From: a virus
IMG/VR virus record: IMGVR_UViG_3300035206_000470
Location: 1-31,048 of that record
Strand: one strand, 5' to 3'
Length of the DNA: 31,048 bases
The translations under genes were made by a program, and so were the position numbers. Below are positions 1,347 through 8,218 of this stretch, in pieces. Every line of letters starts with the position of its first letter. Within the stretch, counting starts at the first letter, position 1. The notes below the pieces were generated by a model. The model did not search any database. It saw nothing but the letters and a program-made list of their open reading frames with translations, and was not told where the DNA came from.

Positions 1347-1358
1347 GAGCCTTTTTTT
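1313..1358 (+). terminator. Terminator closing the endolysin region
   Basis: CTATTTA (1320-1326) pairs with TAAATAG (1336-1342) around a nine-base loop, and CTTA (1313-1316) can pair with TAAG (1344-1347) below a small internal loop. The run of seven T's at 1352-1358 follows. The stem is AT-rich and imperfect, so strength is uncertain. It separates the lysis region from the replication region. Confidence 0.5.
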
Positions 1359-1388
1359 ATTGCAAAAGTTTTTGTATATTTGTTTAAG
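1354..1388 (+). promoter_or_regulatory. Bacteroidota-type promoter for the structured RNA / replication operon
   Basis: TATATTTG at 1375-1382 is a perfect match to the Bacteroidota -7 consensus TAnnTTTG. The -33 region is only a T-rich tract (1352-1358), a weak match to TTTG. Predicted transcription start is about 1387-1388, which is exactly where the first strand of the RNA helix begins. Confidence 0.65.
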
Positions 1389-1499
1389 GTCGTGGAAAAC
1401 CTCAAAGATACATTTTTATTTTAATAGCCTTTAAAGGTGCGGTTAACACTTCCTTTGTGTTAATGTTTCCACGACCGCCGTACCTTTAAAGGCTTTTTT
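1388..1499 (+). ncRNA. Structured leader RNA or small RNA with interleaved helices
   Basis: Three helices can be read directly. Helix 1: GGTCGTGGAAA (1388-1398) with TTTCCACGACC (1466-1476), 11 bp. Helix 2: 1426-1442 with 1478-1494, 17 bp with one G-U wobble, followed by six T's. Helix 3: TTAACAC (1443-1449) with GTGTTAA (1457-1463), a seven-base loop. Helices 1 and 2 are interleaved, so they form either a pseudoknot or alternative folds. The promoter at 1375 places the 5' end at helix 1 and the T-run marks the 3' end, giving about 110 nt. It lies directly before the replication initiator gene. It may be a free small RNA or an attenuating leader. No known riboswitch class is recognised. Confidence 0.6.
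1426..1499 (+). terminator. Strong intrinsic terminator upstream of the replication initiator
   Basis: AGCCTTTAAAGGTGCGG (1426-1442) pairs with 1478-1494 over 17 bp with a single G-U pair, and T's run to 1499, eleven bases before the initiator ATG. The position before rather than after a gene points to attenuation of the replication operon or to the 3' end of a small RNA. The core CCTTTAAAGG is itself a palindrome in both arms. Confidence 0.65.
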
Positions 1500-1509
1500 A
1501 TTCTCTACA

Positions 1510-2460
1510 ATGATATATAACACAATATACCACGATATAAGAAACGCCGCGGGGCTTAGTATGTTAGATTATTGTTTACTTGAGTCTATTTACTTACTTT
1601 CAACAAGTTCAAAAGCTAAATATAAAACTTGGTGCAATGCTACAAAACCCGCGTTTAATTACTTGGCGAGTTCTCGCACTATTGCAACCCGTTTTAAATA
1701 TTTAGAGGCTAAGGGTTGGCTAATATTTAAAGACGAAAAGCGATTTTTAAAAAAGACCTCGGACAAGTATTTTTGCGAGGTTTACGCTTACATTTTAGGC
1801 ATGAAGAAACTTCACCCCAAGCATGAAGAAACTTCACCCCCAGGCATGAAGAAACTTCACCCCAAGCATGAAGAAACTTCACCCAATAATAATAGTAACT
1901 CTATTGATAGTAATAAAAAAGAGAGTAAAAAAGGGGCCCCCTCTTCTGAGGACGCCTTAGAAAATAATTTTATTAAAAACCAAGACGAAAAAGAAAAAGA
2001 AAAAAGCCCCGCGAAAAAAGAAAAACATATTTTTCCAGATAACACCCCGAGAAAATCTTACAAGGTAACGCCCCCGCCAACTTTTGAAAATTCTAAAAAG
2101 CCTTTTGAAATATTTTTAAATAATTACCCTTTTGAGGCTAAGGGTTGGAGCAAGCAAATAATAAAAGATTTTTTATTGTATTGCGAAATTAGAGCCGAGG
2201 GCCGCCAACTTTCAACCGCTCAAATAAAACTAAGACTAACAGAAATAAACGAGGCATTAAAAAAACACGATAATAAAGATATTGTTATGATTTTAAAAGC
2301 CGCCCAAAATGGCCGCGGCGGCGGTTGGGCCTCTTTTGAGTTTGACGAACGAATAAAAGACCGCCTCGCAGCTAAGAACAAGAAAAAACATAATGTAACG
2401 GAAAGTTATGATATTGTAAAGGATCAATTAAACGACCCTAATTTTTTATTTAAAATGTAA
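1510..2460 (+). CDS. Replication initiator / replisome organizer-like protein
   Basis: 316 residues. The N-terminal third looks like a winged-helix DNA-binding domain, with a likely recognition region LASSRTIATRFKYLEAKGWL at about residues 52-71. Residues about 98-125 are encoded by four DNA iterons, and residues about 126-185 are a K/E/S-rich flexible linker. A helical C-terminal domain (about 190-316) would contact other replication proteins. This architecture, with DNA-binding domain, iteron-encoded linker and C-terminal interaction domain, matches phage initiators such as lambda O and Gram-positive replisome organizers, although no sequence homology to lambda O is claimed. It sits behind a promoter and attenuator-like RNA and is followed closely by a second replication-module gene. 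The exact family is not certain. Confidence 0.7.
   Translation: MIYNTIYHDIRNAAGLSMLDYCLLESIYLLSTSSKAKYKTWCNATKPAFNYLASSRTIATRFKYLEAKGWLIFKDEKRFLKKTSDKYFCEVYAYILGMKKLHPKHEETSPPGMKKLHPKHEETSPNNNSNSIDSNKKESKKGAPSSEDALENNFIKNQDEKEKEKSPAKKEKHIFPDNTPRKSYKVTPPPTFENSKKPFEIFLNNYPFEAKGWSKQIIKDFLLYCEIRAEGRQLSTAQIKLRLTEINEALKKHDNKDIVMILKAAQNGRGGGWASFEFDERIKDRLAAKNKKKHNVTESYDIVKDQLNDPNFLFKM
1799..1884 (+). repeat. Four 20-bp iterons inside the initiator gene
   Basis: GCATGAAGAAACTTCACCCC occurs at 1799-1818, 1821-1840 and 1844-1863, and 19 of its 20 bases at 1866-1884. Start-to-start spacings are 22, 23 and 22 bp, about two helical turns. Each copy holds the inverted repeat TGAAG-AAA-CTTCA. Because 22 and 23 are not multiples of three, successive copies are read in different frames (KKLHP versus HEETSP), so the conserved unit is the DNA, not the protein. 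Confidence 0.9.
1885..1932 (+). other. AT-rich stretch next to the iterons, candidate DNA unwinding element / origin
   Basis: Directly after the fourth iteron the sequence is almost all A and T, with AATAATAATAGTAA at its start and AGTAATAAAAAAGAGAG further on. It lies at the same relative place as the AT-rich unwinding region beside the iterons in the lambda O gene. Together with the iterons it is the best candidate for the replication origin in this window. Confidence 0.55.
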
Positions 2461-2472
2461 ATTATAAAAGCA

Positions 2473-3399
2473 ATGAACAACAAACCAACAACAACAAATA
2501 ATAAGCACGAAATTATTTTAAAACCTAGAAGCTCGGGCCGCACGTTTGCCGTTTTAGCTCAAAAATGCCATACAACCCCCGACGTACTGGCTACAATAAT
2601 AAAAGGCGAAAAAAACCGTATAAAAGAATGTTTAGAGTTTTCTCAAGAGGAAACTATTAAATCGCTGCAAAATAGAATTTTTGGAGTTTTAGAGCTTTAC
2701 ACTTCGGCCCCAGTACGAACCGAAACGGGAATAACAGACAACGCGCGGCAATTAATCGCCGCCCTAATGAATATAACAATATCTAAATTCTCTTTTTTGT
2801 CGGTTGACGAAATAAAGCAAGCTTTTGACTTGGCCGCCCTCGATGGCTTGGATTTATCGACATATTACGGAAAAATAACCGTTACTTTGTATATAAAAGT
2901 GTTGAAAAACTATGTAAACAAGCGTAATTTAATACGCCAAGAATACGACAAATCTTTAAAACTTTTAAATACACAAAGCGACGAGGACAAGAAAAACGAG
3001 CTCAACGCCGCCGCCGTTAATAATATTATACAACAATACACGGCCTTAGTTGCTCAGTACATTAGCGGCGAAAAAGTAACGATTGAAAATATACCTTATA
3101 ATTGGGGCGAGAATCTTAATAAAATAGGGCGTTTAAATGTAGAGTTAAGTACTAAGCAAGAAATAAAGAAAGAAGCTCTAAAAATGGCAATTAGTAGCGT
3201 AAAAAGGACAATAAGCGACGCAAAAGAAAACCCCTATACTAAAAAAGCACTAAGAGACACTCTTAAGAGTTATTTAAACAAGATCGCCGAGGGTGGCGAG
3301 CAAGAAACCCCCGAGAAAATAAAAGCTTTACAATTATCGTTTTATAAAAAACTCGTTGTTTTGGAATCAATTAAAAACGACGCTTTAGAACAATTTTAA
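2473..3399 (+). CDS. Replication-module protein of unknown function
   Basis: 308 residues, soluble and largely helical. A central conserved-looking block (about residues 110-160) reads SVDEIKQAFDLAA, then YYGKITVTLYIKVLKNY, a pattern I associate with uncharacterised proteins of Bacteroidota phages and mobile elements. No Walker A or nuclease motif is visible, so it is not a DnaC-type ATPase or primase by sequence. It begins 12 bases after the initiator gene and ends three bases before the methyltransferase. Its place beside the initiator would suit a helicase-loading partner of the lambda P kind, but that is inference from position only. Confidence 0.65.
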   Translation: MNNKPTTTNNKHEIILKPRSSGRTFAVLAQKCHTTPDVLATIIKGEKNRIKECLEFSQEETIKSLQNRIFGVLELYTSAPVRTETGITDNARQLIAALMNITISKFSFLSVDEIKQAFDLAALDGLDLSTYYGKITVTLYIKVLKNYVNKRNLIRQEYDKSLKLLNTQSDEDKKNELNAAAVNNIIQQYTALVAQYISGEKVTIENIPYNWGENLNKIGRLNVELSTKQEIKKEALKMAISSVKRTISDAKENPYTKKALRDTLKSYLNKIAEGGEQETPEKIKALQLSFYKKLVVLESIKNDALEQF

Positions 3400-3402
3400 G
3401 AC

Positions 3403-4692
3403 ATGAAAAACAAACTAAAAGAATATAATGTTTTGTCCTTATTTAACGGTATGTCATGCGGGTTTATGGCATTAGATAACCTAGGATATAAAAAGATAAA
3501 TTATTATGTTTCAGAAATAGACAGACAAGCTAACAAAGCGGCTAAGATAATAAACCCTAATACTATATTTTTGGGTGACGTTGTAATGCTACGCCGCGTT
3601 ATTTGTTGGAGCGATACGGTAATAAATAAAGCGCTTGCCTCTGCGTACTTAAGCCAGGGAACAAAAGACAAAATAAAGGCTTTGTTATTTGTTAGAAATG
3701 TAAAGTTTGATTTAATATTAGCGGGCTCGCCGTGTCAGGGTTTTAGCTTTGCGGGTAAACAACTTAATTTTGACGACCCAAGAAGTAAATTATTTTTTGA
3801 TTTTGCCAAAATATTGGATAAACTTAAAAAAGTTAACCCAGAAGTTAATTTTTTACTTGAAAATGTAAGAATGAAGCAAGAAAGCGCTTTTATTATATCG
3901 AATATTTTAAAAGTAATGCCTATAAAAATAAACTCGGCTTTGTTGTCTGCTCAAAATAGAGCACGCCTTTATTGGGTTAACTTTGGGCCTCAGTTTCAAA
4001 AGGCAATGTTTCAGCCAATAAGTAGCGCAATAGAACAACCAAAAGATAAAGGTATTTTGTTAAATGATGTTTTAGAAAATAATGTAAGTGATAAATATTA
4101 TTTAAGTGATAAGGGGATAAAAACGGTAACAAATGAAACTAGGCTAAAAAAGAGGTTTTCCGCTATTAATGGGGTAAAATCTCTTTGCTTGTTGGCGTCG
4201 GGCACAAACAATCTAAGCGGGACGCATATTGATGAGAATAAATTAACAATTTGCGCCGCGATGAGGGGCAGATACGACGACAACGGCGATATAAAACAAG
4301 AGATAGAAGTAAGAAAAGACAATAAAACCAATTGTTTAACCTCAGTACAAAAAGACAATTATTTAATAGTACCAGAGGCAACAAAAAAAGGATATACCGA
4401 AATAAAAGACGGCGAATGTGTAGATTTAACCTTTATTGATTCAAAGACAAGACGAGGGCGAAAAATGGATAAAAAAAGCAACTGTTTAACAGCCTCAAAT
4501 TATGATTTTTGCCAATGGAAAGATGCTAAGATCAGACGTTTAACCCCCTTAGAGTGTATGAGGTTGCAAACAATACCCGCCAAATATTCGGATTTACTGT
4601 TAAAAAGTAATATTTCAGATAGTCAACATTATAAAATGGCTGGGAACGGTTGGACGGTTGAGGTTATAAGCTATCTTTTAAGCCATATTTAA
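3403..4692 (+). CDS. DNA (cytosine-5) methyltransferase
   Basis: 429 residues with the C5-methyltransferase motifs in order. Motif I is SLFNGMSCG (12-20), binding S-adenosylmethionine. Motif IV is SPCQGFSFAG (109-118) with the nucleophile Cys111. Motif VI is LLENV (151-155), motif VIII is SAQNRARLYW (182-191), and motifs IX-X lie near the C-terminus, including AGNGWTVEVI. The roughly 185 residues between motifs VIII and IX hold the target recognition region, with two similar blocks (NCLTSVQKDN and NCLTASNYDF). The motif I form is shared by many phage enzymes and by the DNMT3 branch. It transfers a methyl group to C5 of cytosine; the site cannot be read from sequence. Likely roles are protection from host restriction or of self against the downstream nuclease. 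It is the last gene before a terminator. Confidence 0.92.
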   Translation: MKNKLKEYNVLSLFNGMSCGFMALDNLGYKKINYYVSEIDRQANKAAKIINPNTIFLGDVVMLRRVICWSDTVINKALASAYLSQGTKDKIKALLFVRNVKFDLILAGSPCQGFSFAGKQLNFDDPRSKLFFDFAKILDKLKKVNPEVNFLLENVRMKQESAFIISNILKVMPIKINSALLSAQNRARLYWVNFGPQFQKAMFQPISSAIEQPKDKGILLNDVLENNVSDKYYLSDKGIKTVTNETRLKKRFSAINGVKSLCLLASGTNNLSGTHIDENKLTICAAMRGRYDDNGDIKQEIEVRKDNKTNCLTSVQKDNYLIVPEATKKGYTEIKDGECVDLTFIDSKTRRGRKMDKKSNCLTASNYDFCQWKDAKIRRLTPLECMRLQTIPAKYSDLLLKSNISDSQHYKMAGNGWTVEVISYLLSHI

Positions 4693-5912: not shown

Positions 5913-7106
5913 TTATTGTTTTTCATTGTTCCAATTGTTTAATTTAATTAAATATTTTTCAAAATGTTTCGCCCGCTCTGGGTCGTTGCCTCTAATATGG
6001 TTGTTTATTTCTGATTTTCTGCAGAGCTCTAGCCGCTCGCCGTCGTCCAAGCTTACCCAAATACGAGGTACTTTTTGTTTACCGACGGGGGGCACTATAT
6101 CGCCCTCTCTTGGCTCGCCTTTACTTTCTTCTTTACCTTGCTTTATTTGTATGTTATTTGTAACTAAAGACGCCTCGGGGGTGTCGTTAGATACGTTTTT
6201 AACCTTTTCTTTAATGACGTCTTTAATTGACCTTTTAGCCTTTTTTGTCGGTTCTTTAATTAAAGTTTTAGCCTCTTTTAGTTCTCTTTTTTCAAAGTTA
6301 GAGCACCAAAATAAAGTTAAAAATAAAACAACCTCAAAACCTAAAGAAGCAAACGCCGAGTAGTTGCCAAAAGTAACAATCCAATCTTTATTAATAGATT
6401 TAAGCTCTTTGTTTTTGTTCTTTGCGGCTTGAATCTCTGAGCGCTCGCCCGCTTGAATTATAGCCGCGTATTTTACTAAGCTATCTTTGTAATTCTTTAT
6501 TAAGTTAAATTGTGCTTGCTCAGCTTTTACCGCTCTGGATCTTGTAACCCCTCGGCGGTTGTTGTTCTCGTTTATAAGTTTAGCTTGTCTTTCTGCCTCG
6601 GCTCCAAGCTTACCCCAGTACGCCGAGTTTTGGGCTAGTTTTTGGCTGTTGTTTTCTTTTATTAACTCAATATCTATTAAGTCAGGCTCAGCACTAAAAA
6701 ACTTTATAGCATGAGGGGCCCCAAGGTAAGACGAGCACACCGACAAAGACGCCCCAACGGCGCAAAAAATAAGAATCGTTTTACTAATCTGTTCTTTACT
6801 ATTTCTTTGTCGGTTGTATTCGTCGTAAGATATGCGCTTAAAAGCCTCTAATAATAGAAGCAAAGCAATTGTAGCAATAATAACAACCCCGAAACTTTTA
6901 GAGAATACCGCCGACAAAAGTAAAACCCCGCCCGCGGCAAAAATAGCGCTCAATATCTGCAGGCCGAAAGACAAGCCAATAAACATTTTATAAAACGGCT
7001 CTAACCGCTCCGAGTTAGTACGAAAAGAGTATTTCTTTTGTAGTTTTTCTAGTCTTTCTTTTTTGGCCAATAAGTCGGCCTCGTCGTTTATCTGTTCTTT
7101 GTTCAT
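5913..7106 (-). CDS. Four-helix integral membrane protein, minus-strand cassette
   Basis: 397 residues from the ATG at 7106 (MNKEQINDE). A start at 7163 would add 19 residues and run into the divergent control region. Membrane segments lie at about 42-68, 72-88, 110-127 and 242-270. Between the third and fourth is a roughly 110-residue charged helical domain (coiled-coil-like, rich in A, K, E, N). A C-terminal tail of about 125 residues (272-397) is K/E-rich and ends in a small domain with IWVSLDDGERLELCRKSE. It is the first gene of an operon transcribed against all other genes here. I do not recognise the family. The isolated opposite orientation suggests a moron or exclusion-type function, which is inference. 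Confidence 0.7.
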   Translation of the reverse strand: MNKEQINDEADLLAKKERLEKLQKKYSFRTNSERLEPFYKMFIGLSFGLQILSAIFAAGGVLLLSAVFSKSFGVVIIATIALLLLLEAFKRISYDEYNRQRNSKEQISKTILIFCAVGASLSVCSSYLGAPHAIKFFSAEPDLIDIELIKENNSQKLAQNSAYWGKLGAEAERQAKLINENNNRRGVTRSRAVKAEQAQFNLIKNYKDSLVKYAAIIQAGERSEIQAAKNKNKELKSINKDWIVTFGNYSAFASLGFEVVLFLTLFWCSNFEKRELKEAKTLIKEPTKKAKRSIKDVIKEKVKNVSNDTPEASLVTNNIQIKQGKEESKGEPREGDIVPPVGKQKVPRIWVSLDDGERLELCRKSEINNHIRGNDPERAKHFEKYLIKLNNWNNEKQ

Positions 7107-7462: not shown

Positions 7463-8218
7463 ATGATTTTAAGACGATTAGGCAATAAAAAAAAGATCGC
7501 AAAAAAGATTCAAGCTTATTTCCCCGCGCATAAGATATACATTGAGCCGTTTTTTGGTGCAGGGGGAATGTTTTTTAATAAGCCAAAAGCTAAGTATAAT
7601 ATTGTTAATGATTTAGACAGCGATGTTTTTAATTTATTTCAAGTTGTAATGAATCAAAAAGAGGAACTAGAAAAGGCGTTTTATCTTATGCCTATACATT
7701 CGGATTTATTGGAGTACTGGAAAGTGAACAAAGAGGCAGAACCTATTAAAAAAGCTTTAAGGTTTTTATTTTTGTCTAATTTCACTTTTATGGGTTCGGG
7801 TTCGGGTTTGAGGGTTCGAGGAGATAACGTTAAAAGTGGTTTTTATAAAGGATTAAATGATACTTTTGATTTATTGACAGATGTTAATTTTTCAAATAAG
7901 GATTATCGTAAGCTTTTAAAGTCTATTGAATACAGGGGCGGTGATTTTATTTATTGTGACCCCCCGTACTTAGGAACTATCGATAATTATAGTAATAGTT
8001 TCACAAAGTCCGATTCTTTAGACCTATTCGATACACTAGAACAAACAGGTTGCAAATGGGCTATGAGTGAATTTTTTAACCCTTTTATATTAGAACAAGC
8101 AAAGCAAAGAAATTTGAACGTAATAATAATAGGCGAAAGACAAAACCTAAAAAACAGAAGAACAGAAATATTAGTTACTAATTACGAAAACAGACAAACC
8201 GCCCTAAATTTCAACTAA
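7463..8218 (+). CDS. DNA adenine methyltransferase, D12 class (Dam-like)
   Basis: 251 residues. The N-terminus RRLGNKKKIAKKI and the motif EPFFGAGGMFF (28-38) form the S-adenosylmethionine site of D12-class enzymes. The catalytic motif IV is YCDPPY with DPPY at 166-169. The region between them (about 60-150) is the target recognition domain, with SNFTFMGSGSG resembling the loop seen in this class. It methylates N6 of adenine in a site that cannot be read here. Full length for the family. It overlaps the next ORF by one base (TAATG). With the cytosine enzyme at 3403, the phage can modify both bases, which suggests defence against several host restriction systems or methylation-dependent control. 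Confidence 0.9.
   Translation: MILRRLGNKKKIAKKIQAYFPAHKIYIEPFFGAGGMFFNKPKAKYNIVNDLDSDVFNLFQVVMNQKEELEKAFYLMPIHSDLLEYWKVNKEAEPIKKALRFLFLSNFTFMGSGSGLRVRGDNVKSGFYKGLNDTFDLLTDVNFSNKDYRKLLKSIEYRGGDFIYCDPPYLGTIDNYSNSFTKSDSLDLFDTLEQTGCKWAMSEFFNPFILEQAKQRNLNVIIIGERQNLKNRRTEILVTNYENRQTALNFN

Follow-up and report, generated by a model that had tools for sequence, protein, structure and literature searches.

A leader RNA with complementary hairpin loops upstream of replication-initiator genes of Bacteroidota-type phages, a candidate attenuator of the replication operon

RNA control of replication in described systems, compared with the phage leader

ColE1 RNA I and RNA II, like similar copy-control RNAs, kiss through hairpin loops of 7-8 nt, and compatibility depends on the loop sequence; what these RNAs govern is a primer. 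Type III toxin-antitoxin loci like ToxIN are composed of a promoter, a structured or pseudoknotted RNA, a terminator and a gene, and exist in sequence-specific variants. Attenuation of replication initiators by antisense RNA is a classical theme of plasmid biology and is also known for satellite phage P4, while for Bacteroidota phages a limited search of open-access papers gave no report of it. In P4 the immunity RNA, CI, arises by processing of the leader and base-pairs with the target sequences seqA and seqC, terminating transcription of the replication genes (PMC4825925). In plasmid pIP501 (Inc18), RNAIII attenuates the repR mRNA, termination being controlled by loop-loop RNA pairing (PMC4981023).

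The element described here was found in a linear IMG/VR virus record of 31,048 bases, called the window when its full length is meant, whose gene set (terminase, portal, initiator, methyltransferases) is that of a Bacteroidota-type phage. As in P4, the replication operon of the phage is preceded by an untranslated leader that contains mutually complementary segments. RNA-RNA pairing is linked in P4 to premature termination of replication-gene transcription (PMC4825925), a link that we infer for the present leader. The element differs from P4 in that both partners are hairpin loops of the same short RNA, the second loop belonging to an intrinsic terminator, and in its Bacteroidota promoter; no sequence likeness was seen. 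With pIP501 it shares the location in the leader of a replication initiator, and its terminator hairpin P2 with the T-run corresponds to the intrinsic terminator found in initiator leaders of the pIP501/pT181 type. In pIP501 a separate antisense RNA is made from the opposite strand; here the leader is complementary to itself, and a separate antisense gene was not seen. A perfect minus-strand TAnnTTTG box (TATCTTTG) within the leader at 1410-1403 could start a leftward antisense transcript. An antiterminator of the pIP501/pT181 type pairs the 5' arm of the terminator with upstream sequence; the crossing helix of the phage leader pairs with the terminator loop and not with the arm. Kissing loops are common to the element and to ColE1-type copy-control RNAs, the latter acting on a primer and not on a terminator before an initiator gene. 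The order of promoter, structured RNA, terminator and gene is that of ToxIN, without its tandem repeats. Membership of ToxIN was rejected: the downstream proteins match replication-initiation PHROGs, HTH_36, DUF6291, DUF1376 and Phg_2220_C, not ToxN.

Anatomy of the element and of its class

An earlier note on this DNA had proposed a structured RNA with a crossing helix and an intrinsic terminator upstream of the initiator. Its helices of 11, 17 and 7 bp are present as exact strings (Table 1). Given the terminator, an upstream/loop helix of equal strength is obtained in 4/20,000 dinucleotide shuffles; the arms of the terminator were excluded, and each of the two partner stretches was shuffled by itself so that its dinucleotides were preserved. 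The minimum free energy (MFE) of the leader is -36.6 kcal/mol (z -5.2 versus shuffles). The crossing helix runs past the loop of P0 into the P0 stem, and 10 nt separate the end of the T-run from the initiator ATG at 1510. The proposed TAnnTTTG promoter box is perfect but not distinctive by itself: with 50 copies on both strands of the record it is weak evidence, which gains weight because related elements carry one too. The 8-codon mini ORF suggested within the terminator arm was not upheld, as it is absent or different in other members and has no consistent counterpart.

Table 1. Features of the leader element and of the genes that follow it (positions in the window)
Feature	Position	Strand	Basis
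Bacteroidota -7 promoter box TATATTTG	1375..1382	+	sequence; TAnnTTTG box also upstream of most related elements
Predicted transcription start	about 1387	+	G at -5, spacing rule for the Bacteroidota promoter (PMC6847099)
P0, 5' hairpin AGGT[CGTGGAAA]ACCT, 8-nt loop 1391-1398	1387..1402	+	MFE fold; counterpart 8-nt-loop hairpins in most relatives
H1a, 5' strand of crossing helix GGTCGTGGAAA (P0 loop and 3 nt of P0 stem)	1388..1398	+	perfect 11-bp complement of 1466-1476
P2, terminator 5' arm AGCCTTTAAAGGTGCGG	1426..1442	+	17 bp with 1478-1494, one G-U; MFE
Side hairpin TTAACAC[TTCCTTT]GTGTTAA within terminator loop, 1443-1449 x 1457-1463	1443..1463	+	subtype marker common to L229 and L167
H1b, 3' strand of crossing helix, within terminator loop	1466..1476	+	complementarity to 1388-1398
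P2, terminator 3' arm and T-run (1494-1499)	1478..1499	+	sequence
Replication initiator, O-like/DnaD-like, first gene 3' of the element	1510..2460	+	weak PHROG matches phrog_391 and phrog_186
Second operon gene, no assigned family	2473..3399	+	distant homologues follow the initiator in relatives

Two other features adjoin or overlap these. An imperfect GGC..GCC hairpin followed by seven T (1303-1358, by eye) forms a second terminator-like structure, which ends the upstream glucosaminidase (lysis) gene directly 5' of the promoter box. The palindrome CCTTTAAAGG is present in both terminator arms (1428-1437 and 1483-1492) and is a possible DNA-level protein-binding site.

The window copy has no close relatives among viral contigs searched with the initiator, the terminase, the capsid and the exact helix pattern, nor among phage records searched with several window proteins and the window DNA. 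Distant relatives in viral contigs were reached via a two-row terminase alignment. A few of these encode a homologue of the second operon gene, preceded in each by an O-like initiator, and the gap 5' of those initiators holds the same elements in the same order, with sequences that differ greatly: promoter box, 5' strand, terminator 5' arm, 3' strand in the loop, terminator 3' arm, T-run and ATG. Further members came from searches with the C-terminus and the N-terminus of the initiator and with the second gene, and from protein families in cellular genomes; the first descriptor scanner required uninterrupted stems and missed members having interior loops. The curated set comprises 26 elements, from Bacteroidota-type phages and one prophage, mostly directly 5' of replication-initiator genes. 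Among 16 phages newly found by second-gene homology alone and having a readable upstream region, 11 carry the element (three of them, L199, L200 and L207, called by relaxed criteria or by eye) and five have no recognisable one; as a control, 5.8% of 1,433 other terminators have a match of member-typical strength. The A6 initiator type gave no match among 395 Bacteroidota-phylum genomes, and in Flavobacterium Fpv5 and FPSV-S2 and Cellulophaga phi39:1 a similar initiator lies inside the operon with no element nearby. DUF6291 genes of cellular genomes are mostly without leader; it is present in L228 and in L229, the latter lying in a cellular genome about 13 kb before a terminase and a portal gene and therefore in a prophage. 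In accordance with the earlier note, which recognised no RNA family, the Rfam 15 covariance models at gathering score match neither the window nor the element regions of the relatives. Below threshold the element is matched best by microRNA models, which are unrelated, and the only Rfam match in L194 is a tRNA at 344-437. No description of the element was found in a limited search of open-access papers, and it appears to be undescribed as an RNA family.

MFE folds computed blind to the crossing helix give the P0 and P2 hairpins with apical loops most often of 8 nt, and all 26 leaders have z < -2 versus shuffles (mean -4.3). The crossing helix, of 6-11 bp and mostly 7-8, links the P0 and P2 loops; judged from sequence, it is therefore a kissing-loop interaction (a pseudoknot) that leaves room for both stems and can coexist with the terminator. 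The earlier view that the crossing helices force a pseudoknot or two alternative folds thus stands for the pseudoknot, but no choice between folds is forced, since both hairpins with paired loops are conserved together in relatives. A small subtype (type B), characterised by a side hairpin 5' of the 3' strand inside the terminator loop, includes the window, L167 and L229, the latter with P0 TTTAAG[ATTGACAC]CTTAAA and an 18-bp terminator. MAFFT did not align the helices of these three, so that type-B membership rests on topology. The window itself would be assigned to the class by its topology, position and 11-bp match and by subtype resemblance to only two others, with flanks that are not alignable. 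A second complementary pair also seems to be present in L199, L200 and L207. In L199 (1500-1692) and L200 (2522-2703), which form a longer subtype, this second pair is TTGACA / TGTCAA and is conserved alongside loops that vary. The L207 contig carries at 6740-6905 a second unit of kissing hairpins and terminator (loop AGTGGTAT x ATACCAC), preceding a 110-residue ORF whose function is not assigned.

The initiators downstream of the elements have several unrelated N-terminal types (HTH_36, Phg_2220_C, DUF1376, DUF6291), and the counterparts of the window initiator in relatives match replication-initiation PHROGs. The place of the second gene is occupied by a DnaC-like helicase loader in L041 and L229. 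Since the T-run ends 0-18 nt from the ATG of the next gene in the members listed and additional promoter boxes between the box and the ATG are rare, read-through is the simplest route for initiator expression. An extra ORF, homing-endonuclease-like by eye, lies between element and initiator in L007 (3163-3423), L194 (2876-3135), L189 (2222-3132) and L228 (284-779), and two small genes separate them in L207. A gene with a DnaA-domain-IV-like C-terminus (by eye) ends directly 5' of the element in L229 (about 1150-1290) and L075 (before 1734). Elsewhere in the window, positions 60-365 hold an ORF of near-identical 22-residue tandem repeats (KQNGDSLRYVKDQTEAICLEAV), four stretches of which match DUF4116. 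A C5-cytosine methyltransferase (Pfam match) is encoded at 3403-4692 and an ORF at 7463-8218 is adenine-methylase-like by sequence look; this phage probably modifies its own DNA.

Loop-loop pairing and its conservation

The loop sequences vary widely among phages yet match inside each element. Own loops of the 26 members pair over a mean of 7.7 bp and swapped loops over 4.0 bp; 0/20,000 permutations reach the observed sum, in a test that is not selection-free as several members were found through complementarity searching. Across the nine members that can be aligned, 63/63 cells of the loop pair (100%) remain paired, 13 of them double-changed and none single-changed. None of 500 shuffles gives a loop covariation as high, and slid control partners are 24-65% paired. 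The whole structure has 47 double-changed cells versus 14.8 expected from shuffles. The outer terminator helix is misregistered in some rows of this alignment (A7), so its unpaired cells are at least partly alignment error. The compensatory changes that the earlier note anticipated at the same position in related phages are thus present, both as loop covariation and as own-versus-swapped matching, though only in distant members of the class.

Near-identical elements bear different, still matched loops. This is found for L041 (AGTAGCAG x CTGCTACT) and L123 (GTGGACG x CGTCCAC), L007 (GTAGTGG x CCACTAC) and L194 (GGTCGGAG x CTCCGACC), L190 (AGTAGAGA x TCTCTACT) and L191 (AGTAGAAG x CTTCTACT), L025 and L046, and L199 and L200; the loop pair of L188 is CGGGAAG x CTTCCCG. 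Over six close pairs identity amounts to 62/92 in the loops versus 569/658 in the flanks (p = 2e-5), the faster loop change being due to three of the six. Loops that change faster than their flanks would be as expected of a recognition code. Some loop sequences recur in otherwise different leaders (GTAGCAG in L041, L127 and L213; GTAGGAG in L042 and L020), as if certain loop codes get reused.

Candidate mechanism and alternatives

Our leading hypothesis, which we hold tentatively, is that the element is an attenuator in the leader of the replication operon, built of loop-complementary hairpins, whose short terminated RNA acts in trans as a dose-dependent brake, giving negative feedback or immunity according to the loop code. 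Transcription would begin directly 5' of P0, which would fold first and whose loop would then pair with the loop of the later-made hairpin P2. Because the terminator adjoins the ATG of the next gene and leaves little room for another promoter, expression of the initiator would require read-through. Most transcripts would end as a ~110-nt RNA bearing both loops. Through them this RNA could pair with P0 or with P2 of leaders still being transcribed from other genome copies or from phages sharing the loop code. Such pairing in trans would shift the balance to termination, braking replication according to dose, and would act between phages only if their loops match. The comparison shows the anatomy, the loop pairing with its conservation and sequence turnover, and the position before initiators. 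We infer attenuation of the operon and the trans action of the short RNA from the position of the element, the quick but matched turnover of its loops and the precedents of P4 CI RNA and pIP501 RNAIII, and presume that its effect favours termination. Conservation of the topology upstream of initiators from unrelated families also counts in favour of an attenuator. Against the trans action, matched loop pairs could drift without any trans role if pairing occurs only in cis. Two observations also count against the hypothesis: a separate antisense gene was not seen, and five of the 16 phages with a related second gene have no recognisable element.

The strongest rival is accordingly a purely cis-acting regulated terminator, the loop pair being part of a tertiary fold that adjusts termination in response to some protein or metabolite. 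Candidate effectors are the initiator, an antiterminator and a host factor. Many autoregulated leaders are known, and the likeness of topology, promoter and position in all members, together with the conservation of the stems adjoining the loops, is consistent with such a device. A site for a ligand or protein should keep its sequence, however, and the loops are the most variable part, in an RNA that precedes initiators of unrelated families. We consider this explanation rather unlikely.

The element could also be a stable stand-alone small RNA with host or phage mRNA targets elsewhere, ended merely by the terminator, the initiator being expressed by read-through or from upstream transcription. 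The promoter of its own, the strong terminator and a structure protecting both ends would suit this role. It is made improbable by the constant location close upstream of the replication operon, by loops that match each other and change quickly among related phages, and by the absence of the window's loop words elsewhere in its genome. The position upstream of the initiator, and the kissing loops that also serve ColE1 control, might alternatively suggest an RNA that primes or regulates DNA replication directly, in the way of RNA II and RNA I, instead of initiator expression. All members have an intrinsic terminator with a T-run, and the GC skew does not switch at this position, giving no hint of an origin; we regard such a function as quite improbable. 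That a commonplace terminator and an inverted repeat came together by chance is hardly credible: 11-bp repeats do arise by chance in the window, another one being at 6739/6804, but the rarity of the crossing helix in shuffles, the class-wide matching of loops and the covariation contradict this explanation.

As a mechanism, the attenuator with trans feedback would add a variant to the known ways in which RNA attenuates replication. The element is compact and self-contained, it stands upstream of initiators of unrelated types, and between near-identical copies its two loops are exchanged together and stay matched. It is possible, though more doubtful than not, that it represents a widespread undescribed RNA system of Bacteroidota phages, in which one leader bears both the lock and the key loop, gauges genome copy number and defines groups of replication immunity; a fast-changing loop code would decide which phages, on co-infection, silence one another's replication operon. 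If the trans role is true, the loops would provide a readable sequence code for phage replication compatibility, which genome sequences would suffice to test, and orthogonal RNA attenuators would be at hand for use in Bacteroidota. The loop lock and key may tell related phages apart.
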